Below are positions 2,362 to 23,858 of a DNA stretch of 34,865 nucleotides, in pieces. A model generated the notes under the pieces. It made no database searches. It worked only from the letters and a program-made list of their open reading frames with translations, and was not told the DNA's origin. How positions within the stretch are numbered: the stretch's first letter is position 1; each line of letters opens with the position of its first letter. A program made the position numbers and the translations under genes. This DNA comes from Alphaproteobacteria bacterium (GTDB taxonomy: Bacteria; Pseudomonadota; Alphaproteobacteria; GCA-2731375), in NCBI GenBank assembly GCA_030747035.1, contig JASLLM010000015.1:1-34865 (forward strand). Direction: 5' to 3'.

Positions 2362-2482
2362 GCGGCACATTTAACGGCAGAACGGGCAACACGGCAATAT
2401 GCGGCCTTGGCATCCCCGCCCGACAACAGGCATTATAAGCGCATAAAAACAATAAATGCCGCGAACGGGAGCTTGGGAGCCG

Positions 2483-4114
2483 ATGACGGTAGACACATCG
2501 AACTGGACATTGACCGGTTTGGCCCAACGTCAGGCCGAAAAACATGGCGAGCGCGAGTTTATGTCGTTTGAGCACGGCACCTCGCTCACCTTTGCATCAT
2601 TGCACCGTGACAGCGACCGTCTGGCCGGAAATCTGGCCAGCCTGGGCGTGGGGCCGGAAGACCGGGTCATGGTGATGTTGAAGAACCGCATTGAACTGAT
2701 GCTGGCGATGTTCGCGATCATGAAACTGGGCGCCATCTTCGTGCCCATCAACACCGACCTCAACGGCGCCTTCCTGCAACACCAGATGCGCAACGCCGAA
2801 CCACGGGTGCTCTTCCTTGACGCCGATCTCGCCGATGCCTTTGACGCGGTTCAGGGCGGCAACGAAAGCCTTGCCGCCATCGTCTATGTGGCGGGCGAGG
2901 TACCGGCGGAACGGCCCGATGTCCTGGCAGGGGCGCCGGCCATGACTTTCGCGGCATTCTCCGAACTTGCCGGGTCCCAAGATGATGTGCTGGTCACGCC
3001 CAAGCCCGAGGACATCGCCTGTATCATGTACACATCCGGCACCACGGGGCCATCCAAGGGCGTCCTGCTGCCGCATGCCCATTGCTATCTGTTCGGCCGG
3101 GGCATGGCCCGCGCCATGGAAATGACGGAACAGGATTGCCAATATGTCTGCATGCCCCTGTTCCATGCCATGGGACTGTTGATGCAGGTGATGAGTTCCC
3201 TGCTGACCGGTTCCAGGGTCTATTGCATCGAACGCTTTTCACCGCAAAGTTGGCTGGACGATGTGCGGGCCTGCGGAGCGACCGTATCGAACGCACTTGG
3301 CGTCATTCCCGAGTTCATCTTCCGCAGTCCCGAATCCGAGTACGACCGCGATCACAAACTACGCCTGGTGGCCGCCATTCCCATCGCCGCCGAGTGGGGC
3401 GAGGCCATGCAGCAACGTTTCGGCTTCAAATTCATGCAGCTCTACGGCATGACTGAGATCAACATAGTCTCGTATACCAATCAGGACGATCCCCTGCTGC
3501 CCGGTCTGGCCGGTCATGTGCTGGACGATTTTTTCGAGCTGCGCATCGTGGATACGGCAACCGATACCGCCCTGCCCCGGGGTGAAATCGGCGAAATCCT
3601 GGTCCGGCCCAAGGTGCCGTTCTGCCTCAACCAGGGCTATTTCCGCATGCCGGAGAGGACCGTCGATGCCCGGCGCAATTTGTGGTTCCACACTGGAGAC
3701 GCGGGCTATTTCGATGACCAGGGACGGCTCTACTATGCCGACCGGATCAAAGACCGAATTCGGCGCCGGGGCGAGAATATTTCCAGCTTCGAGATCGAGC
3801 AGGTCCTGAACGATCATCCGGACGTCAATGAAAGCGCCGTAGTCGGCATCAAGGTCGAGGACGCGGGTGGCGAGGACGAGGTCAAGGCCTACATCGTCAC
3901 CGACGGCGGCGCTGACATCGACAATGTCGCCTTGCTGGACTATTGCGTCGAACAAATCCCCCGTTTCGCGGTACCCCGTTATATCGAAGCGGTCGAAGCC
4001 ATTGGCAAGACCGCGACGGGCAAGATTCAAAAGGAGCCGCTACGACAGGCCGGCGTGACCAACCGCACTTGGGATCGGGAGTCCGTCGGCTACAAGATCG
4101 CCCGGCGGGTTTGA
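2483..4114 (+). CDS. AMP-forming acyl-CoA ligase, crotonobetaine/carnitine-CoA ligase-like (copy 1)
   Basis: This is a 543-residue member of the ANL superfamily. It should activate a carboxylic acid with ATP and join it to CoA. The AMP/ATP loop YTSGTTGPSKG is at about 182-192. The A5-type motif (QLYGMTE) follows, then FHTGD and the hinge YADRIKDRIRRRGENIS. The C-terminal catalytic Lys lies in TGKIQKEP at about 512-519. An upstream ATG at 2456 is in frame, but I chose 2483 because the next gene starts with the matching sequence M-T-x-D-x-SNWTLTGL and both proteins are then 543 residues. A GGGAG site lies three bases upstream, which is tight. The overall pattern resembles CaiC, but no caiA, caiB or caiD is nearby, so the acid substrate is open. 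Confidence 0.92.
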   Translation: MTVDTSNWTLTGLAQRQAEKHGEREFMSFEHGTSLTFASLHRDSDRLAGNLASLGVGPEDRVMVMLKNRIELMLAMFAIMKLGAIFVPINTDLNGAFLQHQMRNAEPRVLFLDADLADAFDAVQGGNESLAAIVYVAGEVPAERPDVLAGAPAMTFAAFSELAGSQDDVLVTPKPEDIACIMYTSGTTGPSKGVLLPHAHCYLFGRGMARAMEMTEQDCQYVCMPLFHAMGLLMQVMSSLLTGSRVYCIERFSPQSWLDDVRACGATVSNALGVIPEFIFRSPESEYDRDHKLRLVAAIPIAAEWGEAMQQRFGFKFMQLYGMTEINIVSYTNQDDPLLPGLAGHVLDDFFELRIVDTATDTALPRGEIGEILVRPKVPFCLNQGYFRMPERTVDARRNLWFHTGDAGYFDDQGRLYYADRIKDRIRRRGENISSFEIEQVLNDHPDVNESAVVGIKVEDAGGEDEVKAYIVTDGGADIDNVALLDYCVEQIPRFAVPRYIEAVEAIGKTATGKIQKEPLRQAGVTNRTWDRESVGYKIARRV

Positions 4115-4185
4115 GGCCGCCGGCGGGGATGATGTATTTTGATCGGGTGTGCGACAATTTTTGACAGTGGGGAGCCAAAGAGGCC

Positions 4186-5817
4186 ATGACGCAGGATATT
4201 TCCAATTGGACCCTGACCGGTTTGCTGCAACGGCAGGCGGAAGCCCAGGGTGAGCGGGAGTTTATGTCGTTCGAACACGGCACCTCGCTCAGCTTCGCCT
4301 CGCTGCACGCCGACAGCAACCGCCTGGCGCGCAATCTGGCTAGTCTGGGCGTGACGCCGGGGGACCGGGTCATGGTCATGCCGAAGAACCGCATAGAGTT
4401 CATGCTGGCCATGTTCGCGATCATGAAACTGGGCGCCATCTTCGTCCCCGTGAATACGGAACTGAAGGGCGCCTTCCTGAGCCATCAGATGCGCAATGCC
4501 GAACCTTGCATGGTTTTCCTCGATCACGATCTACGCGATGCCTTCGATGCTGTTCAGGGCGGCAACGACAACCTTGCCTCGGTGATTTATGTGGCGGGGC
4601 ATGTCCCCAAGGAACGCCCGGCGGTCTTCGCCGACGCGGAAGCCATGACGTTCGAGAATCTATTCGCGCTCGCGGGTACGACGGACGATGTTATTGTCAC
4701 GGCGGAACCACAGGACATCGCCTGCATCATGTATACCTCCGGCACCACGGGTCCCTCCAAGGGCGTGCTGATGCCGCACGCCCATTGTTATCTGTTCGGC
4801 CACGGCATGGCGCGGACCATGGCGATGACCGAAAAGGACTGCCAGTATGTCTGCATGCCCCTGTTCCATGCCATGGGGCTGTTGCTGCAGGTGGTCAGTT
4901 CCCTGATCACCGGTTCCAAGGTCTTTTGCATAGAGCGCTTTTCGCCGGCCCGCTGGCTTGATGATGTTCGCGAAAGCGGCGCCACGGTGACCAATGCACT
5001 TGGCGTCATTCCAGAGTTCATTTTCCGCACTCCGGAATCCGAATACGACCGTGATCATAAATTGCGCGTCGTCGTGGCCGTGCCGATCGCGGCGGAATGG
5101 GGCGAGGCCATGGAGAAACGCTTCGGCTTCAAGTTCATGCAGGCCTACGGCATGACGGAGGTAAATATCCCCTGCTACACCAGCGAGGCTGACCCGCTGC
5201 TGCCGGGCATGGCCGGACACGTCATTGATGACTTCTTCGAGGTTCGGGTGGTAGATGCCGAAACGGATGCCGTCATGGCGCAAGGTGAAATCGGTGAAAT
5301 CGTGGTTCGTCCCAAAGTGCCGTTCTGCTTCAACCAGGGCTACTTCCGAATGGAGGAGCGCACCGTCGAGGCCTGGCGCAATCTTTGGTTCCATTCCGGC
5401 GATGCCGGTTATTTCGACGAACAGGGCCGGCTGTTCTATGCCGACCGTATCCGGGACCGCATCCGCCGGCGGGGCGAGAATATCTCCTCGTTCGAGATTG
5501 AACAGGTCCTGAACGATCATCCGGACGTCCAGGAAAGTGCCGTGGTGGGCATCCGCGTCGAGGGCGCGGGCGGCGAGGACGAGGTCAAGGCCTATATCGT
5601 CACCGCCCGAGGCGAGGATATCGATAACGTCGCGCTGCTGGATTATTGCGCCGTGAATATTCCGCGCTTTGCCGTTCCCCGCTATGTGGAAGCGGTCGAG
5701 GAAGTGCCGAAGACCGCTACCGGCAAGATCCAGAAGGAGCCGCTGCGCCAGGCTGGCGTGACCAACCGCACCTGGGACCGGGAGTCAGTCGGCTACAAGA
5801 TCGCCCGGCGGGTCTGA
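4186..5817 (+). CDS. AMP-forming acyl-CoA ligase, crotonobetaine/carnitine-CoA ligase-like (copy 2)
   Basis: This 543-residue protein is collinear with the preceding gene over its whole length, so the pair is a tandem duplication. It has the same landmarks: YTSGTTGPSKG at about 182-192, AYGMTE, FHSGD, YADRIRDRIRRRGENIS and the C-terminal TGKIQKEP near 512-519. The last stretch (TNRTWDRESVGYKIARRV) is identical between the copies, while the substrate-pocket half differs more. Examples are QLYGMTEINIVSYTN in copy 1 against QAYGMTEVNIPCYTS in copy 2. The start has GGGGAG and GAGG sites within 20 bases. The 71-base gap after copy 1 has no obvious terminator, so the pair is probably co-transcribed. 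Different acid substrates for the two copies would be a reasonable expectation but are not shown. Confidence 0.92.
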   Translation: MTQDISNWTLTGLLQRQAEAQGEREFMSFEHGTSLSFASLHADSNRLARNLASLGVTPGDRVMVMPKNRIEFMLAMFAIMKLGAIFVPVNTELKGAFLSHQMRNAEPCMVFLDHDLRDAFDAVQGGNDNLASVIYVAGHVPKERPAVFADAEAMTFENLFALAGTTDDVIVTAEPQDIACIMYTSGTTGPSKGVLMPHAHCYLFGHGMARTMAMTEKDCQYVCMPLFHAMGLLLQVVSSLITGSKVFCIERFSPARWLDDVRESGATVTNALGVIPEFIFRTPESEYDRDHKLRVVVAVPIAAEWGEAMEKRFGFKFMQAYGMTEVNIPCYTSEADPLLPGMAGHVIDDFFEVRVVDAETDAVMAQGEIGEIVVRPKVPFCFNQGYFRMEERTVEAWRNLWFHSGDAGYFDEQGRLFYADRIRDRIRRRGENISSFEIEQVLNDHPDVQESAVVGIRVEGAGGEDEVKAYIVTARGEDIDNVALLDYCAVNIPRFAVPRYVEAVEEVPKTATGKIQKEPLRQAGVTNRTWDRESVGYKIARRV

Positions 5818-7994: not shown

Positions 7995-9128
7995 CTAGCC
8001 CAGTGTTTCCTTGAACAACGCCTGGTAATCCGCCGCCGCAAGCGGCCTGGGATTGGAGGCGGTGGTGTGATCCGCCACCGCGTGGGGGATCAACGGTTCG
8101 ACCATCGCCTCATCAACACCCATTTCCCTGAGGTTGGCGGGTAGGCCCAGGCGGGCATTCAGGGCCGCCCCCTCTTCCGCCAGGTTGGCATTGTCCGGCA
8201 GGCCCCAGATCCGTTTGACCCAATCGTATTTGTCCCCGACAGCATCAGCGTTATAGCGGATCACCGCCGGCAGGCAGACCGCGTTCAGGGTGCCATGATG
8301 CAACACCGGATCCTTGATCGAGCCCAATGGATGTGACATCCCGTGCACCGCGCCCAGCCCCTTTTGAAAGGCCATGGCGCCTTCCATGGACGCCATCATC
8401 ATCTGCCAGCGGGCTTCCTTGTCGCTACCATCGGCCACCGCCTGTTCAATGAAGCGAATGGCACGGCCAAGGCCATCGGTGGCGATGGCGTCCGCCGGTG
8501 GATTGATCGCGGAAGCGCAAAAAGTTTCGAAACAATGGGCAAACGCATCCATCCCCGTTCCCGCGGTCAACATCTTGGGCATGGAGAAAGTCAATTCGGG
8601 ATCGCACAGGGCCACCTTGGGGATGACGTGGGGGCTGCCGAAACCCAGCTTGCGGCCATCATTCAGGATCATGATGGCGCCACGGCCGACCTCGCTGCCG
8701 GTACCCGCTGTTGTCGGAATCGCAATCACCGGCGCGATCGCGTCGGTGATCTTGGGCGCGCCGCCCATGATCATCATGTATTCCGACAATTCACCGGGAT
8801 GGGTCGCCATCAAGGCAATGGCCTTGGCCAGGTCCATGGAAGAACCGCCGCCGATACCGATCACGCCATCACAATCGGCCTCGCGATATTGCGCCAATGC
8901 GGCCGTCATCGCCGCTTCCGTCGGGTTTTCCGGCGTGCCATCGAATATTTCCGCCGGACATTGATTGGGCAACTGTTCCATGACCCGGTCCAGCAGACCG
9001 GCCGCACGAATGCCCTTGTCGGTGACCAGAAGGGGACGGCTCATGCCCAACTCGGCCATTTCCGATGCCAGCAATTGCACCGCGCCGAATTCGAACTGAA
9101 TCTTGGTCAAATAGGTGATGGTCGCCAT
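7995..9128 (-). CDS. Iron-containing (group III) alcohol dehydrogenase
   Basis: This 377-residue NAD(P)-dependent dehydrogenase interconverts an alcohol and an aldehyde. The N-terminal Rossmann part has GIGGGSSMDLAKA at 91-103 and PTTAGTGSEVGRGA at 138-151. The metal-binding part has GMDAFAHCFETF, with D194 and H198, then VHGMSHPLGS with H262 and H266, then HHG at 277-279. Together these give the usual Asp-His-His-His set seen in FucO. It is the first gene of a minus-strand operon with the sirtuin and SnoaL-like genes. The 480 bases upstream carry an FNR/FixK box and a series of hairpins. This suggests induction under low oxygen, but the transcript might stop before the gene. The substrate is not known. 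Confidence 0.93.
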   Translation of the reverse strand: MATITYLTKIQFEFGAVQLLASEMAELGMSRPLLVTDKGIRAAGLLDRVMEQLPNQCPAEIFDGTPENPTEAAMTAALAQYREADCDGVIGIGGGSSMDLAKAIALMATHPGELSEYMMIMGGAPKITDAIAPVIAIPTTAGTGSEVGRGAIMILNDGRKLGFGSPHVIPKVALCDPELTFSMPKMLTAGTGMDAFAHCFETFCASAINPPADAIATDGLGRAIRFIEQAVADGSDKEARWQMMMASMEGAMAFQKGLGAVHGMSHPLGSIKDPVLHHGTLNAVCLPAVIRYNADAVGDKYDWVKRIWGLPDNANLAEEGAALNARLGLPANLREMGVDEAMVEPLIPHAVADHTTASNPRPLAAADYQALFKETLG

Positions 9129-9214: not shown

Positions 9215-9283
9215 CTTCATTCCCGGTCCAAGATTGGAGATCGCCGCACCCGTGAAGCGGGTTCAAGAGTAGCCTGAATGAAG
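9215..9283 (-). other. Possible three-way-junction RNA fold in the Fe-ADH leader
   Basis: The 8-base arms CTTCATTC (9215-9222) and GAATGAAG (9276-9283) are exact reverse complements. They enclose two smaller hairpins: TCCA/TGGA (9227-9238) and ACCCG/CGGGT with a five-base loop (9248-9262). The layout is symmetrical on both strands, but on the minus strand it begins one base after the strong hairpin 9314-9285 and lies ahead of Fe-ADH. It could be a structured 5' leader. Part of this may be chance; covariation in relatives would decide. Confidence 0.3.
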
Positions 9284-9284
9284 A

Positions 9285-9314
9285 AATGGCCGCGTCGATC
9301 ACGACGCGGCCATT
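9285..9314 (-). terminator. Candidate rho-independent terminator (minus strand)
   Basis: There is a perfect 13-base inverted repeat, AATGGCCGCGTCG / CGACGCGGCCATT, with a four-base loop. On the minus strand it is followed by TCTTCATTC, a moderately U-rich tail that reads AUUUCUUCAUU with the last stem bases. On the plus strand it is followed by CCTAATGG, which is not terminator-like. The tail is weaker than a classical run of U, so partial read-through into the Fe-ADH operon is plausible. Confidence 0.5.
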
Positions 9315-9323
9315 CCTAATGGT

Positions 9324-9353
9324 GAGGGCTGCGGATGGGGGGCCGCAGCCCTC
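9324..9353 (-). other. 11-base-pair hairpin with C-rich loop
   Basis: Arms GAGGGCTGCGG (9324-9334) and CCGCAGCCCTC (9343-9353) are perfectly complementary around an eight-base loop. The loop reads ATGGGGGG on the plus strand and CCCCCCAT on the minus strand. No U-tract follows on either strand, so a simple terminator is unlikely. It lies just upstream of the terminator-like hairpin in the minus-strand transcript. Confidence 0.6.
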
Positions 9354-9487
9354 GGCGCTTGCAGGGGATTGCAGCGCCAGGGGACTCTTCGGTGGCGATC
9401 CTTGGACCAACCACCTGACTGCTGCCGTCTTATTCTGCTGGTGCTCGAACCAGATTGGGAAAAACGTTCAGCAGCGAATTTGTAGTT

Positions 9488-9493
9488 AAAATA
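9488..9493 (-). promoter_or_regulatory. -10 element of the FNR/FixK-type promoter
   Basis: TATTTT on the minus strand. Placed at -12 to -7 it predicts a start at 9481, which puts the FNR/FixK box centre at -41.5, the standard class II activator position. Confidence 0.5.
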
Positions 9494-9515
9494 CAAAGGC
9501 GGGCGATGTTCGACA

Positions 9516-9529
9516 TTGATCTAGGTCAA
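9516..9529 (-). promoter_or_regulatory. FNR/FixK/DNR-type operator
   Basis: The sequence TTGATCTAGGTCAA matches the CRP/FNR-family consensus TTGAT-N4-ATCAA at all but one position and is otherwise palindromic. It is the kind of site used by FNR, FnrL, FixK and DNR regulators in alphaproteobacteria for low-oxygen or nitric-oxide control. A plus-strand -10 (TAATGC at 9551) could also be served, but nothing coding lies downstream on that strand for several hundred bases. Confidence 0.7.
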
Positions 9530-9610: not shown

Positions 9611-9958
9611 TTACTTGCGCCGCTCCCCCCGCGCGCGGTCGTCTTCCGCCTTCACTTCACCATAGACGCCACTCAACATGCGTGCCAGTTGGTTGCGTCC
9701 CTGCTCTATAGCTTGTTCCACGGCACCGAGAATCTTGTCCGACAGGCGCCGCTCATACCGGCCTTTGCCGGTACTTTGGCGGATGTACTGGCGAACCTTC
9801 AACCAATGGAGAACTTCCTCCATTGCGCCGCCGTCCAAAACCTGGATCATTTTTTCCGTCGTGGCATTTTCAACTTCCGCGCCATAGCGCGCGATCAACT
9901 CTTCCCCCGCTTCGCGGATTTCCGCGTCGACTTCATCCGGCGGCACTTGATCGGCCAT
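9611..9958 (-). CDS. Conserved-looking hypothetical protein, 115 residues
   Basis: I do not recognise this protein. It is a small, acidic-to-mixed, mostly helical protein without a signal peptide or membrane segment. The N-terminal helix region (DEVDAEIREAGEELIARYGA) is followed by EVLHWLKVRQYIRQSTGKGRYERR and a long helix (KILGAVEQAIEQGRNQLARM), with a charged tail ending ARGERRK. The frame extends upstream, but the ATG at 9958 has an AGGAAG site at good spacing and the upstream part is low in coding character. It is divergent from the DUF2336 gene. The basic and acidic helices would fit a nucleic-acid or protein-binding accessory factor, but nothing specific can be claimed. Confidence 0.65.
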   Translation of the reverse strand: MADQVPPDEVDAEIREAGEELIARYGAEVENATTEKMIQVLDGGAMEEVLHWLKVRQYIRQSTGKGRYERRLSDKILGAVEQAIEQGRNQLARMLSGVYGEVKAEDDRARGERRK

Positions 9959-10208: not shown

Positions 10209-11351
10209 ATGAAGGGCATGCTCGCAAAAGCTATACAACAGCCCGTGAATGACTCCGAGGTAAGGAGTCTATTCAAGCTCGCGCACGAAAAATCGAAAGA
10301 GGGCCGGGAATCGCTTTACAATGCGATCGGCGACCTTTTCGAACGCCGGGCCAATGAATTGCAGGCCAACGAACGCGGATTGATGATCGACATCCTGGAG
10401 CGGTTGAGCCAGGAAGTGGAAATGTCGGTACGGGTCAACCTGGCCAACCGTTTGGCGGAACAGGGCGATGCACCTGGTGACCTGATCCGCATGCTGGCCA
10501 ATGACGACGTTCAGGTGGCTTACAAGATTCTATCCACCAGCCCGGTCCTGCACGACACCGACCTGATCGAAGTGGTGCGCCACCGTACCATGCAGCATCA
10601 ATTGGCGGTCGCCATCCGCAAGGACGTCAGCGAGGAGGTCTCGGCCGCCCTGGTTGATACCGGTACGGAAGACGTTATCGTAACCTTGCTGAACAACCAG
10701 GACGCCCGCATTTCATCGGATGTTCTGGAGTATCTGGCCGATGAGTCCAAACGCGTCGACAGTTACCAAAAACCGATGGTGCGGCGTCCCGACCTGCCGT
10801 CGGATCTGGCCGAACGCATGTATTATTGGGTATCCGCCGCGGTACGGAATTATATCGTTGAAAACTTCGACGTGGATATCGACAGCCTGGATGATGAGAT
10901 GTCGGCAACGGTCAACGATGTGGTCGAGGCCAATGATGAAGAGCCCACCGTCGCCGCCGAGCGTCTGGTCGATCGACTTTATGACGGCGGCAGCGTATCC
11001 GCCGAATTTGCCCTGAAATCACTACACCAGGGACAGGTTTCAATCTTTGAATTCGCCTTTGCCAAGATGGTCGGCATCCGGCCGGTATTGGCCCGGCGCA
11101 TCATTTACGAACCGGGGGGCGAAGCCTTGGGCATTGCCGCCCGCGCCATCGGTTTGGAACGTTCGATCTATCTGCAGATCTATCAATTGACCCGCAAGGC
11201 CCGGGGCAGCGACAACCGTCTGTCCAAGGATGAAGTGGTGCGCCTGACCAAATTCTATGAATCCATCACGCGTGAATCGGCATTTTTGGTGCTGCGTAAA
11301 TGGCAGCGCGACCCACGCTATCTGAACGCCGTCCGGCAAATCAGAAAATAG
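10209..11351 (+). CDS. DUF2336 domain-containing protein
   Basis: This is a 380-residue soluble protein of the alphaproteobacterial DUF2336 type, built of repeated helices that look HEAT-like. It has the usual run of short helical pairs (MIDILERLSQEVEMSVRVNL, VAYKILSTSPVLHDTDLIEV, HRTMQHQLAVAIRKDVSEEV) and the late motif SIFEFAFAKMVGIRPVLARR. No enzyme motif is visible, and the family's function is unknown to me. The open frame extends upstream and an ATG at 10149 is possible. I chose 10209 because the family normally begins shortly before the SEVRSLFKLA helix. It is followed by moaA after a hairpin-rich gap. A weak promoter-like pair (TTGAGC 10078, CATATT 10101, spacer 17) lies upstream. Confidence 0.85.
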   Translation: MKGMLAKAIQQPVNDSEVRSLFKLAHEKSKEGRESLYNAIGDLFERRANELQANERGLMIDILERLSQEVEMSVRVNLANRLAEQGDAPGDLIRMLANDDVQVAYKILSTSPVLHDTDLIEVVRHRTMQHQLAVAIRKDVSEEVSAALVDTGTEDVIVTLLNNQDARISSDVLEYLADESKRVDSYQKPMVRRPDLPSDLAERMYYWVSAAVRNYIVENFDVDIDSLDDEMSATVNDVVEANDEEPTVAAERLVDRLYDGGSVSAEFALKSLHQGQVSIFEFAFAKMVGIRPVLARRIIYEPGGEALGIAARAIGLERSIYLQIYQLTRKARGSDNRLSKDEVVRLTKFYESITRESAFLVLRKWQRDPRYLNAVRQIRK

Positions 11352-12619: not shown

Positions 12620-14188
12620 ATGCCAGGGCCCTGCCCCCGGCCATTAAATAGACGCATCTCACCCCGCAGAGCGGCGGCGGGTCTAGGCTACACTAGGAGG
12701 GCTTCTAAATCCTGGCTGGTATTGCTCGTCCTCGTTGCCGGTCTTTGCTGGCCAGCCTTGTACGGAACCGCTTGGGCGGTCGATGCCTTGATCGTGGCCC
12801 AGGCGGAAATCAAAGCTCCGGTTAGTGGCAAGGCACCACCGCCCCGCAAGGCGATCCATTTGAGCGTGCCCTATCTGGACAACGCCCTGTCGCCGGCGGC
12901 GGCATCGACCGTGCGCGCCATTAGGGACAACGTACCGCGTCTGGTCCGTGAAGACCTGGGCCAGACCATTGCCGGCGACAACCGTGACGTTCGTGCGGCA
13001 GCGAAGGCCGTGGCACGCTACGAACGTGCCGCTGATCAGGGCTATGTCATGGCGCATTACAATCTGGGCCGCGCCTTGGCCGAGGGCGCCGGGGTCAAAC
13101 GTGATTTTCGCCGCGCCTCGGAAAATTTCTCCACGGCGGCCCGATTGGGCAACGTCCCCGCCATGCTGCGATTGGCGGAATTTCATCTCGCCGGCCTCGG
13201 GACGCCCAAGGACAGGGTGGAGGCCTTAGCCCTGTACTATGTTGCCGCCAGTATCGACGAACAGGGCGCGGCGCGGGCGAGATCCCTGCTGGCCTTGCAT
13301 CTCAGTCATGCACAACTGGAGCAGGCGCGCGAGCGGGCCCGTGAAATCAGGGCTCAGATGCCGCGGGTCGATTTGGTCCTTCAGCGCACCAAGGAGCAGG
13401 ATCTGCTGGCGGCCGCAGCAAATGGCGATCTCGACACCGTCAATAGCTTGATCAAGGAAGGCGTTGACGCCAACGCCATCAACAGTTTGGGTCGAACCGG
13501 CATAATCGCGGCAGCCTGGCGCGGCCATTACGAGGTCGTCAAATCGCTGCTGGAAGCCGGCGTGGATATTAACGCGGTCGACAATCAGAGGGGAACCGCC
13601 CTGACATGGGCTTCGGTGAATGGACATCCTAAAATCGTCGAACTCTTGCTGCGGGAATCCGCCCTTATCGACGCGCGGGACACCAAGGGCGCCACTCCGT
13701 TGATACGCGCCGCCTGGAATGGTCATGACGTGGTCGTCAAGTTGCTGGTTGATGCAGGCGCCGACGTGAATGCGGTGGATGACAGCGGCAATACCGCGAT
13801 GGATCGCGCAACTTCAATGAATGAGCGAGATATTATCACTATTCTGCAGTCGGGACCGAAGCGGCGGGGCACATTGAGCATGGCCCTGCTGGAAGACGAT
13901 GATAGCAGCCTGGGCGCCTTGGCTGTATTGGGCCACGACGGCCCCGGACAGGACATCATCGTGGATAGGGCCAACCAGTTGCTTCAGATTGGTCCGGGCG
14001 GCGGTGTCCAGAGCCGTATCGCCACCAGAGAGGAACTGGAGGCGCTGTTCGGCTCCGTCCTGACCGATATGCCCCCCGATCCGACCAAGGGCGAGAACGA
14101 GCTACCGGAAGATTGGCTGTTTATCCTGATCGGCGTGCTGATAGCTTTGGCCATCGCGGCGCTCATTTGGTTCTTCGTATTCAGATGA
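12620..14188 (+). CDS. Exported protein with Sel1-like and ankyrin repeats and a C-terminal anchor
   Basis: The protein has 522 residues from the ATG at 12620, but the start is uncertain. A hydrophobic segment (SWLVLLVLVAGLCWPALYG) after basic residues looks like a signal peptide or anchor ending near AWAVDA. Then comes a Sel1/TPR-like region (ARYERAADQGYVMAHYNLGR; RRASENFSTAARLGNVPAML). About four ankyrin repeats follow from LLAAAANGDLDTVNSLIKEG to AMDRATSMNERDIITIL. The C-terminus (WLFILIGVLIALAIAALIWF) is a membrane helix. It is probably periplasmic and membrane-anchored, acting as a protein-binding scaffold. It is paralogous to the next gene from 'VPYLD' onward. An AGGAGG site at 12695-12700 has no standard start codon at normal spacing. 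The ligand and role are unknown. Confidence 0.8.
   Translation: MPGPCPRPLNRRISPRRAAAGLGYTRRASKSWLVLLVLVAGLCWPALYGTAWAVDALIVAQAEIKAPVSGKAPPPRKAIHLSVPYLDNALSPAAASTVRAIRDNVPRLVREDLGQTIAGDNRDVRAAAKAVARYERAADQGYVMAHYNLGRALAEGAGVKRDFRRASENFSTAARLGNVPAMLRLAEFHLAGLGTPKDRVEALALYYVAASIDEQGAARARSLLALHLSHAQLEQARERAREIRAQMPRVDLVLQRTKEQDLLAAAANGDLDTVNSLIKEGVDANAINSLGRTGIIAAAWRGHYEVVKSLLEAGVDINAVDNQRGTALTWASVNGHPKIVELLLRESALIDARDTKGATPLIRAAWNGHDVVVKLLVDAGADVNAVDDSGNTAMDRATSMNERDIITILQSGPKRRGTLSMALLEDDDSSLGALAVLGHDGPGQDIIVDRANQLLQIGPGGGVQSRIATREELEALFGSVLTDMPPDPTKGENELPEDWLFILIGVLIALAIAALIWFFVFR
12695..12700 (+). promoter_or_regulatory. Perfect AGGAGG without a matching start codon
   Basis: A full Shine-Dalgarno core sits just before the hydrophobic segment of the Sel1/ankyrin protein. 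The in-frame codons after it are GCT TCT AAA TCC TGG CTG. The nearest unusual starts are CTG at 12716 and TTG at 12722, 15 and 21 bases away. It may be coincidental coding sequence, a sign of a non-canonical start, or a base change in the start codon. Confidence 0.35.
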
Positions 14189-14191
14189 TGC

Positions 14192-14222
14192 AATGTTTCA
14201 ATGGACATGACATTGAAACGTT
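14192..14222 (+). other. Hairpin between the two Sel1/ankyrin genes
   Basis: AATGTTTCAATG and CATTGAAACGTT pair over 12 positions (one G-U) around a seven-base loop, starting three bases after the stop of the first gene. No U-run follows, so it could be a weak terminator or an mRNA-stabilising element that sets the ratio of the two paralogues. Confidence 0.4.
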
Positions 14223-14275
14223 CCGCAGTTTGACACAGATTATTAGGAGCAAGGCGGAGCAACGATCCAGCAACA

Positions 14276-16210
14276 ATGATTGCGGTTGATCACCATAGCC
14301 CGGTGCCCGGGCAGCTACATATCTTGGATTGGCCGCTGGCCCTTTTGGGCGCGACCGCCGTGCATGTCCTGTTGCTTTACGGCCTGGTCGGCTTCTTGCG
14401 AGAACCGTCACTGGACCTGCCGCCGACCATTGAGGTTGAAGTGGTGGCCCTGGCACCGGATCTTGAGCCGGAACGGCCATCCGAAAAGACACCGCCGCCG
14501 CCGCACGCCAAGGCTAAGACTTCACCCACGAAACCATTGACACCGGCGCAGACAAAAGCCGTCGCCGTCAAGAAAGAGCCGATCCCCGCCAAACCCAAGC
14601 CCGTGCCGCCCACAGCAAGTAAACCGGTGGCGAAACCGAATGACCAAACGGAAAGCGCGCCAGCTATAAAGCGCTCCGCGGCGAAAACGGCCTCCGATAC
14701 AAGGACGGAAACCAATGCGCCGGCGCCAGCCAAGCCCAAGGTGAAACCGCCGGAGCCATCGAAACCCGTGGCAAAATTGCAAGTCCGCCCGGCATCTCCT
14801 GCCAAGACGCGGGCCCGGCCAGAAACCAAATTGAAACCGCCATCGCCGTCCGAACCCGAGGTAAAGGCAAAGACAAATACAAAAGCCAAGGCGAAACCGC
14901 CGACGCCACCCAAAACAGAGGAGAAATTACAGGCCCGGGTGACGCCCAAGGCAAAACCGCCGGTGCCGTCCAAACCGAAGGCGAAGACCGAGATCAAGAC
15001 ACGGGCCATGGCGAAACCGCTGTCTCCTTCCAAGGCAAAGCCGAAACCGCTGACCCCGTCCAAGGCCAAAGCCAAACGGCTGGCCCGGCTGACGCCAAAA
15101 GGAAAATTGGCAGCAACGTCCAGGCCAGGGTCAAAAAGCAATGCTCGGCAGCAGGCAGTCCATCATGGCGTACCTTATTTGGACGATGCCGTTACGCCTG
15201 CGGCAGCGGCAGCGATCCGCGCTGTCCGGCAGGGAAGCTCCCGTATTGTCCACGAAGACCGGCGCCAGAATATCGTTCAAACCGGGCGCCGGACGGACGC
15301 CGCCAAACGCGCCGTTGCGCGCTATGAGTCCGCCGCCGACCAAGGTTACGTGATGGCGCTCTACAACCTCGCCCGTGCGCAGGCAACCGGGCATGGCACC
15401 GAGCGGAATTACAAGAAGGCCGCCGAGAACTTTCGCGCGGCATCCATGCAGGGTAACATCCCGGCAATGTTGCGCCTGGCAGAAATGCATCTGGCCGGTC
15501 TTGGCGGTCCCGAGGACCGGGTCGCCGCGCAGGCGTTGTACTATGTCGTGGCCGGAATTGAGGGTGGAAGCTCCATTGGTGTCGAGAGCGGAAGCTCCAA
15601 CGATGGTGGAGCCGCCCGGGCCAAGACGCTATTGGCAACCCATCTGGACAATGAACAACTGCAAGAGGCACGTGACATAGCGCTCCGCCTGCGCTCGGGA
15701 ATGCCGGCCATGGACCTGAATTCGCAACGAAGCAGGGAGCTGGCGTTGCTGGCGGCTGCCGCGAGCGGTGATTTGGAGATGGTTGAAAATTCGCTTAAGA
15801 CCGGCGTCGATGCCAATGCCATTGACGAATTGGGCCGCACGGCCACTGTCTCCGCCGCTTGGCGCGGCCACAAACGAGTTATCCAGGTGTTGATCGACTC
15901 GGGCGTCGAGATCGACGCCGCCGATAATCAGGGGCGAACGGCCTTAACCTGGGCCGCCATTAACGGCCATCCGGAAATCGTCGAAAAGCTGCTTGCCGAG
16001 GTGGCGACGGTCGATGTACGGGACGAGGACGGCTTGACGCCATTGATCCGCGCCGCCTGGAATGGCCATGAAGAGATCGTGGCGGCTCTAATCGCCAGTG
16101 CGGCGGACGTCAACGCCACCGACAATCAGGGCGTTAGCGCCCTGCGCCGCGCCGAAACACAGAATGAGACGCGCATCATCGAAATGCTACGCGCGGCCGG
16201 CGCCCGGTGA
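14276..16210 (+). CDS. TonB/TolA-like front end fused to Sel1-like and ankyrin repeats
   Basis: This 644-residue protein has three parts. Residues 18-40 (DWPLALLGATAVHVLLLYGL) form a single inner-membrane anchor, followed by IEVEVVALAP and a proline-rich stretch, as in TonB. Residues about 60-290 are Lys/Pro/Ala-rich with a degenerate unit of the type xKPPxPSKPxAK, able to span the periplasm. From VPYLDDAVTP the sequence parallels the preceding gene: Sel1-like repeats (ARYESAADQGYVMALYNLAR), then about four ankyrin repeats from LLAAAASGDLEMVENSLKTG to the end. There is no TonB C-terminal domain and no C-terminal helix, so it is not an ordinary TonB. An insert rich in Gly/Ser (GGSSIGVESGSSNDGG) interrupts the Sel1 part. 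It may be a periplasm-spanning adaptor; partners are unknown. Confidence 0.82.
   Translation: MIAVDHHSPVPGQLHILDWPLALLGATAVHVLLLYGLVGFLREPSLDLPPTIEVEVVALAPDLEPERPSEKTPPPPHAKAKTSPTKPLTPAQTKAVAVKKEPIPAKPKPVPPTASKPVAKPNDQTESAPAIKRSAAKTASDTRTETNAPAPAKPKVKPPEPSKPVAKLQVRPASPAKTRARPETKLKPPSPSEPEVKAKTNTKAKAKPPTPPKTEEKLQARVTPKAKPPVPSKPKAKTEIKTRAMAKPLSPSKAKPKPLTPSKAKAKRLARLTPKGKLAATSRPGSKSNARQQAVHHGVPYLDDAVTPAAAAAIRAVRQGSSRIVHEDRRQNIVQTGRRTDAAKRAVARYESAADQGYVMALYNLARAQATGHGTERNYKKAAENFRAASMQGNIPAMLRLAEMHLAGLGGPEDRVAAQALYYVVAGIEGGSSIGVESGSSNDGGAARAKTLLATHLDNEQLQEARDIALRLRSGMPAMDLNSQRSRELALLAAAASGDLEMVENSLKTGVDANAIDELGRTATVSAAWRGHKRVIQVLIDSGVEIDAADNQGRTALTWAAINGHPEIVEKLLAEVATVDVRDEDGLTPLIRAAWNGHEEIVAALIASAADVNATDNQGVSALRRAETQNETRIIEMLRAAGAR
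14738..15078 (+). repeat. Degenerate Lys/Pro-rich tandem repeat inside the TonB-like gene
   Basis: Successive units at protein level are VKPPEPSKPVAK, LKPPSPSEPEVK, AKPPTPPK, AKPPVPSKPKAK, AKPLSPSKAKPK and KPLTPSKAKAK. The matching DNA repeats the core aaaccgcc(n)(n)cc(g)tcc with drift, which suggests growth by slippage or unequal recombination. Copy number may vary between strains. Confidence 0.7.
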
Positions 16211-22438: not shown

Positions 22439-22577
22439 CAAAAAGCGACCAGACGAGCTATTCACCGGGCCGAGTATGGTGCTGTTTCCGATTTGTTAAT
22501 TCTTAAGGCAATATTTACCTCCGCGGCGCATTATGCCCTTGGGCTTACTGTGCTCGGATTATCTGTTCGGAACGTCA

Positions 22578-23858
22578 ATGATTACGCAAGAAATTCAACT
22601 CACTCTGGCGCGGCACCAACGTTGGCTCGATGGCCAATCTGGCGGTTCGCGCGCCAATCTGTCTTTACAGGAATTGGAGGGGATGGATTTCGGCGGTGCC
22701 AATCTGGAACAGGCGAAATTGACCGGCGCCCAGTTGGCGGAAGCTATACTGAGCAAGGTGAATTTTCACAAGGCCGATCTGTTTGCCGCCGATCTGCGCA
22801 ACACGGATCTGCGCGGCGCCGATCTTTCCAATTGCGATCTGCGCGGCACCCAATTGCGCGGCGCCGATTTGACCGACGCCAACCTGTTCGGCGCCGATCT
22901 GCGTGACGGCACCTTGATGACGGCGGCGGAAGAAGGCGGCACAAAGGTTGCCAATGCCGAAATTAGCAGCCTGGAGTTGGAGCGTGGCTCCTTGAAGGGC
23001 GCCAATTTGTCCGGTGCCCGGCTGGCGAATTCAGTTCTGACACAAACCGATCTGTCGGGCGCCATCCTGGCCAACGCGGTTCTGACCGATGCCGATTTGA
23101 GCGGCTCGATGATGGATGGCGCTGATTTGAGCGGCGCCGATCTTTCCGGCGCCAACCTGGAAGGCGCCAACCTGGGCGCCGCCAACCTAACCGGCGTGAA
23201 GGTGGAAAACACCAACATGCGCGGCGTGAAATTGAACAACACCTCCATGGAGGGGGTGGATCTGTCCGGTGCCGACCTGACGGGGGCGGAAATCGTCATC
23301 TCCGTGGACAGCCTGCCTGACGATCTGCGCGATACCATCCGGGCCCACGAGGAATGGATGGCCAGCTTCGGCGCCAAGGGCAAGCGCGCTGTCCTGGACG
23401 GCGCCGAACTGGACAATGTGGATTTTTCCGGCATCAACCTGTCCGGGGCATCCCTGGTCGGCGCCGCGCTGACCGGCGCGCGGTTCCTCGGATCGTCGCT
23501 GAACATGGCGGATTTGTCCGGTGCCAATCTCTACAAGGCCAAAATGGACCGGGCCGAAATGACCGGCGCCAATCTGGCCGGTGCAGATTTGACCGAGGCT
23601 TCTCTGGCAGAGGCCGATATCTCGGCCGCCGATATCAAGGACCGGGACGGCAACTCGACCGGCCGTTCCTGGCCCGCCAACCTGACCGATACAAATTTGA
23701 GCCGCAGCAATCTAGCCGCAACCCTGTTGTGCGGCGCCAACCTGTCAGGCAGCAACTTCAACGGCGCCAATCTGCGCGGTGCCGATTTGTCCAACTCCGC
23801 CATCGACGGCGCCCGCCTGCAAGGCGCCATCATTACCGAGGCAAAGCTGCCAAACTAA
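22578..23858 (+). CDS. Pentapeptide-repeat protein with two modules
   Basis: This 426-residue protein is made mainly of A(D/N)LxX pentapeptides, which should form right-handed beta-helices. Module 1 begins with a short helix ITQEIQLTLARHQRWLDGQ and then runs through ADLRNTDLRGADLSNCDLRG. Module 2 begins near residue 250 with a second, related helix (LRDTIRAHEEWMASFGAKG) followed by NVDFSGINLSGASLVGAALT. So the protein looks like an internal duplication of a helix plus solenoid unit. There is no signal peptide. The ATG at 22578 is preferred over an ATG at 22533 because it starts directly at the helix. Some pentapeptide proteins mimic DNA and protect gyrase; here the function is unknown. Confidence 0.88.
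   Translation: MITQEIQLTLARHQRWLDGQSGGSRANLSLQELEGMDFGGANLEQAKLTGAQLAEAILSKVNFHKADLFAADLRNTDLRGADLSNCDLRGTQLRGADLTDANLFGADLRDGTLMTAAEEGGTKVANAEISSLELERGSLKGANLSGARLANSVLTQTDLSGAILANAVLTDADLSGSMMDGADLSGADLSGANLEGANLGAANLTGVKVENTNMRGVKLNNTSMEGVDLSGADLTGAEIVISVDSLPDDLRDTIRAHEEWMASFGAKGKRAVLDGAELDNVDFSGINLSGASLVGAALTGARFLGSSLNMADLSGANLYKAKMDRAEMTGANLAGADLTEASLAEADISAADIKDRDGNSTGRSWPANLTDTNLSRSNLAATLLCGANLSGSNFNGANLRGADLSNSAIDGARLQGAIITEAKLPN

Follow-up and report, generated by a model that had tools for sequence, protein, structure and literature searches.

A predicted FNR-controlled small RNA with C-rich loops in one alphaproteobacterial family

The minus strand of the intergenic stretch between an Fe-containing alcohol dehydrogenase (Fe-ADH) gene and a hypothetical protein gene very probably harbours the gene for a regulatory RNA not described before, about 205 bases long, which has loops rich in C and stands under an oxygen-sensing, FNR-type switch. 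Its synthesis is likely to set in once oxygen is exhausted. Taken as a whole, our preferred reading, which we consider probable from the sequence, is that positions 9481-9277 (minus strand) of the window (the entire stretch of DNA analysed, 34,865 bases) specify a C-rich, free-standing small RNA (sRNA) that is activated by FNR from a class II site at -41.5 and blocks G-rich ribosome-binding sites. In this mechanism, an FNR-type regulator would activate the RNA through the class II box when oxygen falls, and the C-rich single strand and loops would pair with the G-rich ribosome-binding sites of mRNAs unwanted without oxygen. Such pairing would block translation and give the RNA an FnrS-like role with an sX13/RoxS-like anatomy. 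The first-pass annotation of the region had offered two explanations, a low-oxygen-induced sRNA analogous to FnrS of Escherichia coli or a long structured leader of the Fe-ADH gene. Of these, the low-oxygen sRNA is well supported by the promoter footprint, by covariation and by conservation, and the predicted control fits the analogy with FnrS.

The promoter geometry was as the annotation had described it. The FNR/FixK-type box TTGACCTAGATCAATG (9514-9529, minus strand) follows the pattern TTGAN6TCAA and is centred at -41.5. Within it, TTGATCTAGGTCAA at 9516-9529 is nearly perfectly symmetrical, the half sites TTGATCT and TTGACCT (the latter reverse-complemented) being unlike at a single position. 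The box centre, 9522.5, lies at -41.5 relative to position 9481, and the minus-strand TATTTT at 9493-9488 occupies -12 to -7 if transcription starts there; the predicted start at 9481 (minus strand) was derived from these two elements. The pattern TTGAN6TCAA occurs only once in the 34,865 bases of the window. Shuffled windows contained on average 0.35 such sites, with at least one in 28 of 100 shuffles, and by itself the box therefore lies within what chance can produce (for TTGAYN4RTCAA, the mean was 0.14 and 14 of 100 shuffles reached one). The significance of the box comes instead from its conservation across relatives.

Twelve loci carrying the RNA were found, and in 11 of them the box was kept, as an exact TTGAN6TCAA located 128-156 nt upstream of the conserved RNA core. 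A TA-rich -10 element at the class II distance was in register in 10 loci and shifted by 1 nt in one (L049). No second exact box was present within 400 nt upstream (255 nt for L054). The ten in-register sequences displayed a clear footprint: mean pairwise identity rose from 28% over the 40 nt that precede the box to 89% within it (trailing TG included), fell to 34% over the first 20 spacer nucleotides, peaked again at the -10 hexamer (71%; 9488-9493 in the window), dropped to 38% just past it, and reached 89% in the RNA core. The exception was genome G008, in which the RNA was present with no box within 400 nt even when one mismatch was allowed; oxygen control of the RNA may have been lost there, to judge from this sequence. 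The G008 copy itself (L050, 4721-4924) has kept the RNA and its hairpin order, and lacks both the FNR box and a downstream Fe-ADH. In the window, an inverted repeat TTTGTA/TACAAA (9479-9497) overlaps the -10 element and the predicted start; it was not kept in relatives.

The consecutive hairpins seen in the first-pass annotation proved to be a strong property of the minus strand, whose minimum free energy was -107.5 kcal/mol compared with -70.2 ± 4.5 kcal/mol for shuffled sequences (z -8.2; 0 of 200 shuffles). The annotation had described a transcript with no protein gene in its first 350 bases. The distance holds, with the Fe-ADH start at 9128 lying 353 nt from 9481, but the conserved RNA ends near 9277 and is thus about 205 nt long rather than 350 (9277-9481; the 3' end is inferred). 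The 11 complete copies, folded singly, all showed the identical five-hairpin order, with whole-RNA z values of -5.9 to -8.9 (60 shuffles each) and values of -1.7 to -6.7 when the 5' domain was taken by itself; in some full-length folds, an enclosing pairing was added. The remaining copy (L048) is truncated at a contig end and stands outside this set.

From the 5' end, and all on the minus strand, the RNA begins with hairpin I (9418-9475), a long irregular stem recovered as a hairpin of its own in all 11 complete copies, and hairpin II (9391-9415), a stem of the GGTGG...CCACC type whose sequence differs between species. The single-stranded GUCCCC that follows (9380-9385), on the 5' side of hairpin III, was invariant in both the 12-sequence and the 11-sequence comparisons. 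Hairpin III (9354-9378) carries the loop AUCCCC (9364-9369), a motif found in or near this loop in the copies and replaced by an AUUCCCC-like one in L050; its 9 pairs were all present in 11 of 11 sequences, and one was changed on both sides. Hairpin IV (9324-9353) bears the C-rich loop CCCCCCAU (9335-9342) on a stem of 11 pairs; 99.2% of their cells were paired, and two of the pairs were changed on both sides. Hairpin V (9282-9317), with 16 pairs (98.3% of cells paired, three changed on both sides), is terminator-like, and its AUUUCUU tail lies partly within the stem. Its U run, short and partly paired, makes it a non-canonical terminator, and the terminator scan returned 2 sites against 1.2 in shuffles. 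Across three genera the stems of hairpins III and IV hardly varied, unlike the stems elsewhere, and all invariant unpaired parts, namely GUCCCC and the loops of III and IV, are UCCCC- or CCCC-like.

Covariation was assessed in the core alignment of 11 sequences, where 99.0% of the cells of 36 pairs were paired. Compensatory changes were spread over all three core helices, six pairs having changed on both sides. Four of five covariation measures were unmatched by any of 500 shuffles, which ignore relatedness; the fifth, the number of further pair types, was 14 versus 13.6 in shuffles and was reached by 259 of 500. Control structures slid along the alignment had only 37-50% of cells paired, a comparison that favours the real structure since it was derived from the same alignment. 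The pair counts come from the core only. The alignment of hairpin II (8 sequences) came out short, with one sequence out of register, and no pairs were counted there; the full-length alignment, which misaligns the 5' hairpins, was left out of the counts as well. G-U pairs made up 18 of 396 cells. On the opposite strand these would be A-C mismatches, so the G-U pairs fit the minus strand only and fix the strand of the RNA; an RNA on the plus strand was ruled out by these pairs together with the minus-strand U tail of hairpin V.

The core, 63 nt long, is open in all three frames, which would be the point in favour of a short protein encoded there. We find this explanation barely credible: the start, frame and length of the open reading frames differed among the 11 copies, giving no conserved reading frame, and the copies in L053 and L050 have single-base indels, for which reasons we consider the RNA non-coding and rejected the small-protein reading. 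The compensatory nature of the changes in pairs also speaks against it.

The gene neighbourhood bears on whether the RNA is a gene of its own or a leader. In the window, the Fe-ADH gene (7995-9128, minus strand; Pfam PF00465) lies downstream of the RNA, and a 115-aa hypothetical protein (9611-9958, minus strand) with no Pfam match and a DUF2336 protein (10209-11351, plus strand; PF10098) lie upstream. No flanking gene was more constant than DUF2336, which stood upstream of the RNA in 11 of the 12 loci; the remaining one, L054, offers only 255 bases on that side. Downstream, a SIR2 gene was present in 10 of 12 loci, the contigs ending in the remaining two. The Fe-ADH gene proved an optional neighbour, standing between the RNA and SIR2 in 7 of 12 loci, the window included. 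The leader explanation holds that FNR starts an oxygen-regulated transcript of the Fe-ADH operon at 9481, whose hairpins control read-through into Fe-ADH. It draws on these seven loci, in which Fe-ADH shares the strand of the RNA and begins 200-389 nt beyond the point where the core pattern starts, and on the U tail of hairpin V, whose shortness and weakness make some read-through into Fe-ADH plausible. However, no Fe-ADH was found downstream in three of the ten loci with enough sequence (L048 and L051 end too early to show one): SIR2 follows in L050 (at 225) and L053 (at 189), and in L049 no Fe-ADH was found before SIR2 at 1360. Because the RNA is kept in all three, we regard it as a free-standing sRNA gene and not primarily a leader. 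The leader alternative raised in the annotation was therefore largely rejected, and we judge it very unlikely.

The distribution of the free-standing sRNA was narrow. A DNA search placed the region in 12 of 61 genomes, namely the one to which the window belongs, nine of the ten others of the genus, two of the four others of the family, and none of the 46 elsewhere in the class. The genus member with no match (G006) has a contig that stops inside DUF2336. A covariance model of the core (R1) gave strong matches of 66-145 bits in the same 12 of the 15 genomes of the order. A 13th genome listed by R1 (G012; four places, 33 bits) was judged unrelated by sequence, and in the stretch examined, G012 and G013 have DUF2336 relatives with neither core nor box. 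On the class sample, R1 listed 8 of 289 genomes, of which three of the same genus were strong; the other five (28-32 bits; one locus inspected each, L038-L042) had different hairpins and no core and were discarded. Among 84,980 species genomes, 11 records contained the exact core pattern. All 11 are metagenome assemblies with Alphaproteobacteria, Rhodospirillaceae or Proteobacteria in their titles; they are the same 11 relatives as in the DNA search and add no new cases. Plasmids and viral contigs gave no match. Within the genomes and samples searched, the RNA was thus found in one alphaproteobacterial family only. The isolate names SI072, BS150m, casp150 and Arabian10 suggest samples from Saanich Inlet, the Black Sea, the Caspian and the Arabian Sea, and by these names the related genomes would come from oxygen-poor marine waters. 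The 63-base core offers a marker to seek in existing metatranscriptomes.

As to the regulator, the window's genome (84.7% complete) encodes four CRP/FNR proteins above the Pfam cut-off. One of them has a C-x2-C-x7-C cluster and an ETVSR recognition helix, as read from its sequence, and its best NCBIfam match was FnrL, whose equivalog cut-off of 300 bits it did not reach with a score of 166 bits. The pattern TTGAYN4RTCAA occurs at 25 sites in the genome versus 4 for the reversed pattern. We inspected the surroundings of all 25 and named the proteins of ten frames, one of them a regulator. Boxes precede genes for NapF, NapA (a fragment), NirJ, IorA, a PorC-type subunit and cytochrome oxidase subunit II; NapF, NirJ, IorA, PorC/KorC and CoxB scored over the curated cut-off, while the NapA fragment and a NosR-like protein scored below. 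At least four of the 25 boxes lie within long frames (L065, L067, L074 and the nosR-like L080) and may be non-regulatory. Given an FnrL-like regulator and boxes before nap- and nir-type genes, the box upstream of the RNA is very likely part of a genuine FNR-type network in what is probably a denitrifier. An RNA layer in the oxygen switch, if true, would bear on denitrification in oxygen-poor marine waters; in the window's genome, boxes of this type precede both nap and nir genes. Two FNR-type boxes (L070, 270-1002; contig C61 of G000) stand 719 bases apart in what looks like a nap operon, one before napF and one before napA. Another box (L083, 2007-2020; contig C309 of G000) lies 111 nt before the gene for CoxB, cytochrome c oxidase subunit II (over cut-off), possibly a repressed aerobic gene.

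Boxes of the TTGAN6TCAA kind serve both FNR and DNR/NnrR regulators, and so the sequence does not separate an oxygen signal from a nitric oxide signal. The same sRNA might have as its main activator another CRP/FNR protein, of the nitric oxide-responsive DNR/NnrR type, instead of the oxygen-sensing one. The presence of four CRP/FNR proteins and of boxes before denitrification genes is compatible with such an activator, as is a protein (L059) with no N-terminal cysteine cluster encoded beside a molybdopterin oxidoreductase-like frame. The genome does, however, encode the FnrL-like protein with both the cysteine cluster and ETVSR, and we hold the DNR/NnrR alternative to be somewhat unlikely.

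Oxygen control by FNR places the RNA among several known systems. FNR-driven sRNAs are known from gamma- and betaproteobacteria (FnrS of E. coli and a gonococcal case), and RoxS/RsaE of Bacillus and Staphylococcus have C-rich regions, their size and fold being unlike those of the window RNA. FnrS is itself a family in the Rfam library, and cmscan with Rfam gave no covariance-model match between it and the window RNA, which differs from it in having five hairpins and C-rich loops. In Rfam 15 as a whole, no family reached its gathering score, and the five sub-threshold matches at E up to 10 had a best E of 0.17. This best match was sX13 of Xanthomonas (RF02232), at 19.6 bits against a threshold of 50. 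RoxS/RsaE, which are Gram-positive, had no Rfam match to the RNA, and the alpha-r7 sRNAs were absent among the cmscan matches at E up to 10.

FnrS is likewise a small RNA gene under FNR that is made anaerobically, and through it FNR switches off functions unneeded without oxygen (PMC8139620). RoxS/RsaE are redox-controlled, RoxS by ResDE (PMC8139620). Similar in anatomy is sX13, whose apical loops are C-rich (4C, 4C, 5C) like those of the window RNA and which represses mRNAs that bear G-rich (GGGG) motifs close to the start (PMC3771888); the window RNA is distinguished from it by a further two hairpins at the 5' end, by one C motif in single-stranded form and by the FNR promoter. The alpha-r7 sRNAs, too, have three stem-loops with apical C-rich motifs (PMC3771888). 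Among alphaproteobacterial sRNAs tied to low oxygen or denitrification, the consulted portions of the review name "PrrA, FnrL (indirect?)" as the regulators of PcrZ and give that of DenR as unknown; neither is listed with a direct FNR activator, which by description sets them apart from the window RNA, and no other alphaproteobacterial sRNA is listed there with one (PMC8139620). We found no mention of this RNA in the literature searched, including passages of PMC3771888, PMC8139620 and PMC4842269. Judged by these comparisons, we regard the RNA as a new family of a known kind.

With regard to the mode of action, the genome encodes Hfq (PF17209, 112 bits), and sX13 acts without Hfq (PMC3771888). 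We searched for complements of the C-rich parts ahead of start codons. In ten of the genomes with the RNA, CAGGGGA-N3-9-ATG occurred at 70-117 sites each; the counts were 66 and 40 in the other two carriers (G008 and G014), 73 and 37 in G012 and G013, where the RNA was not found, 74 in G006, whose contig is cut at the locus, and 13-60 in seven genomes of other families. That the motif is frequent in G012 and less so in the carrier G014 we counted against the pairing reading. As a reversed-pattern control is unfair for ribosome-binding sites, we claim no enrichment. Among the matches listed, 69 of 70 sites in G004 and 80 of 100 in G010 were examined; an open reading frame of at least 40 aa followed the ATG at 31 and 36 of them, respectively, and the two genomes shared a single, unconvincing homologous pair (99 and 54 aa). 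The longer complements of 9-10 nt, GCAGGGGATT-N0-15-ATG and CCAGGGGAC-N0-15-ATG, were searched in 15 genomes, and 60 loci were examined among the matches listed. A frame of at least 60 aa was present in 24 of the 64 examined site-ATG pairs. The sole homologous group among these loci (L237, L249, L252 and L253) looks as if it lies opposite a coding gene, and one member, L253, is from G012, a genome without the RNA. Thus, the three short exact motifs before ATG yielded no convincing conserved target in the part of the sites examined. In a single genome (L238, G001), a NuoK-like start, named by eye, follows GCAGGGGATT, the perfect complement of loop III and its closing pairs.

The same results can be read in terms of a protein partner, with the RNA binding Hfq, an RNase or the ribosome through the invariant double hairpin rather than pairing with mRNA. 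The near invariance of both stems and loops across three genera, together with the lack of a convincing conserved target in the motif searches, would suit such binding, and the stem sequences are indeed more conserved than loop pairing needs, which we counted against C-loop pairing. The invariant single-stranded parts are nevertheless UCCCC-like, as in sX13 acting on G-rich start-proximal sites (PMC3771888), and we think protein binding in place of pairing quite unlikely. A broader conjecture, also unlikely in our estimation, is that an alphaproteobacterial family combining a class II FNR promoter with a multi-C-loop RNA might use the invariant double hairpin broadly under anoxia, to brake GGGG-type ribosome-binding sites in general or to trap an RNA-binding protein, rather than to act on a few mRNAs. 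C-loop pairing by an FNR-controlled sRNA combines the loop action of sX13 with the control of FnrS and for this reason appears to us the best explanation.

Elsewhere in the window, we observed a tandem pair of AMP-ligase-like genes (2456-5817) whose proteins closely resemble each other. Another tandem pair (12620-16210) encodes proteins with Sel1-like and ankyrin-like repeats, the second of which has a long K/P/A-rich N-terminal stretch. A 441-aa protein encoded at 22533-23858 consists mostly of pentapeptide repeats.
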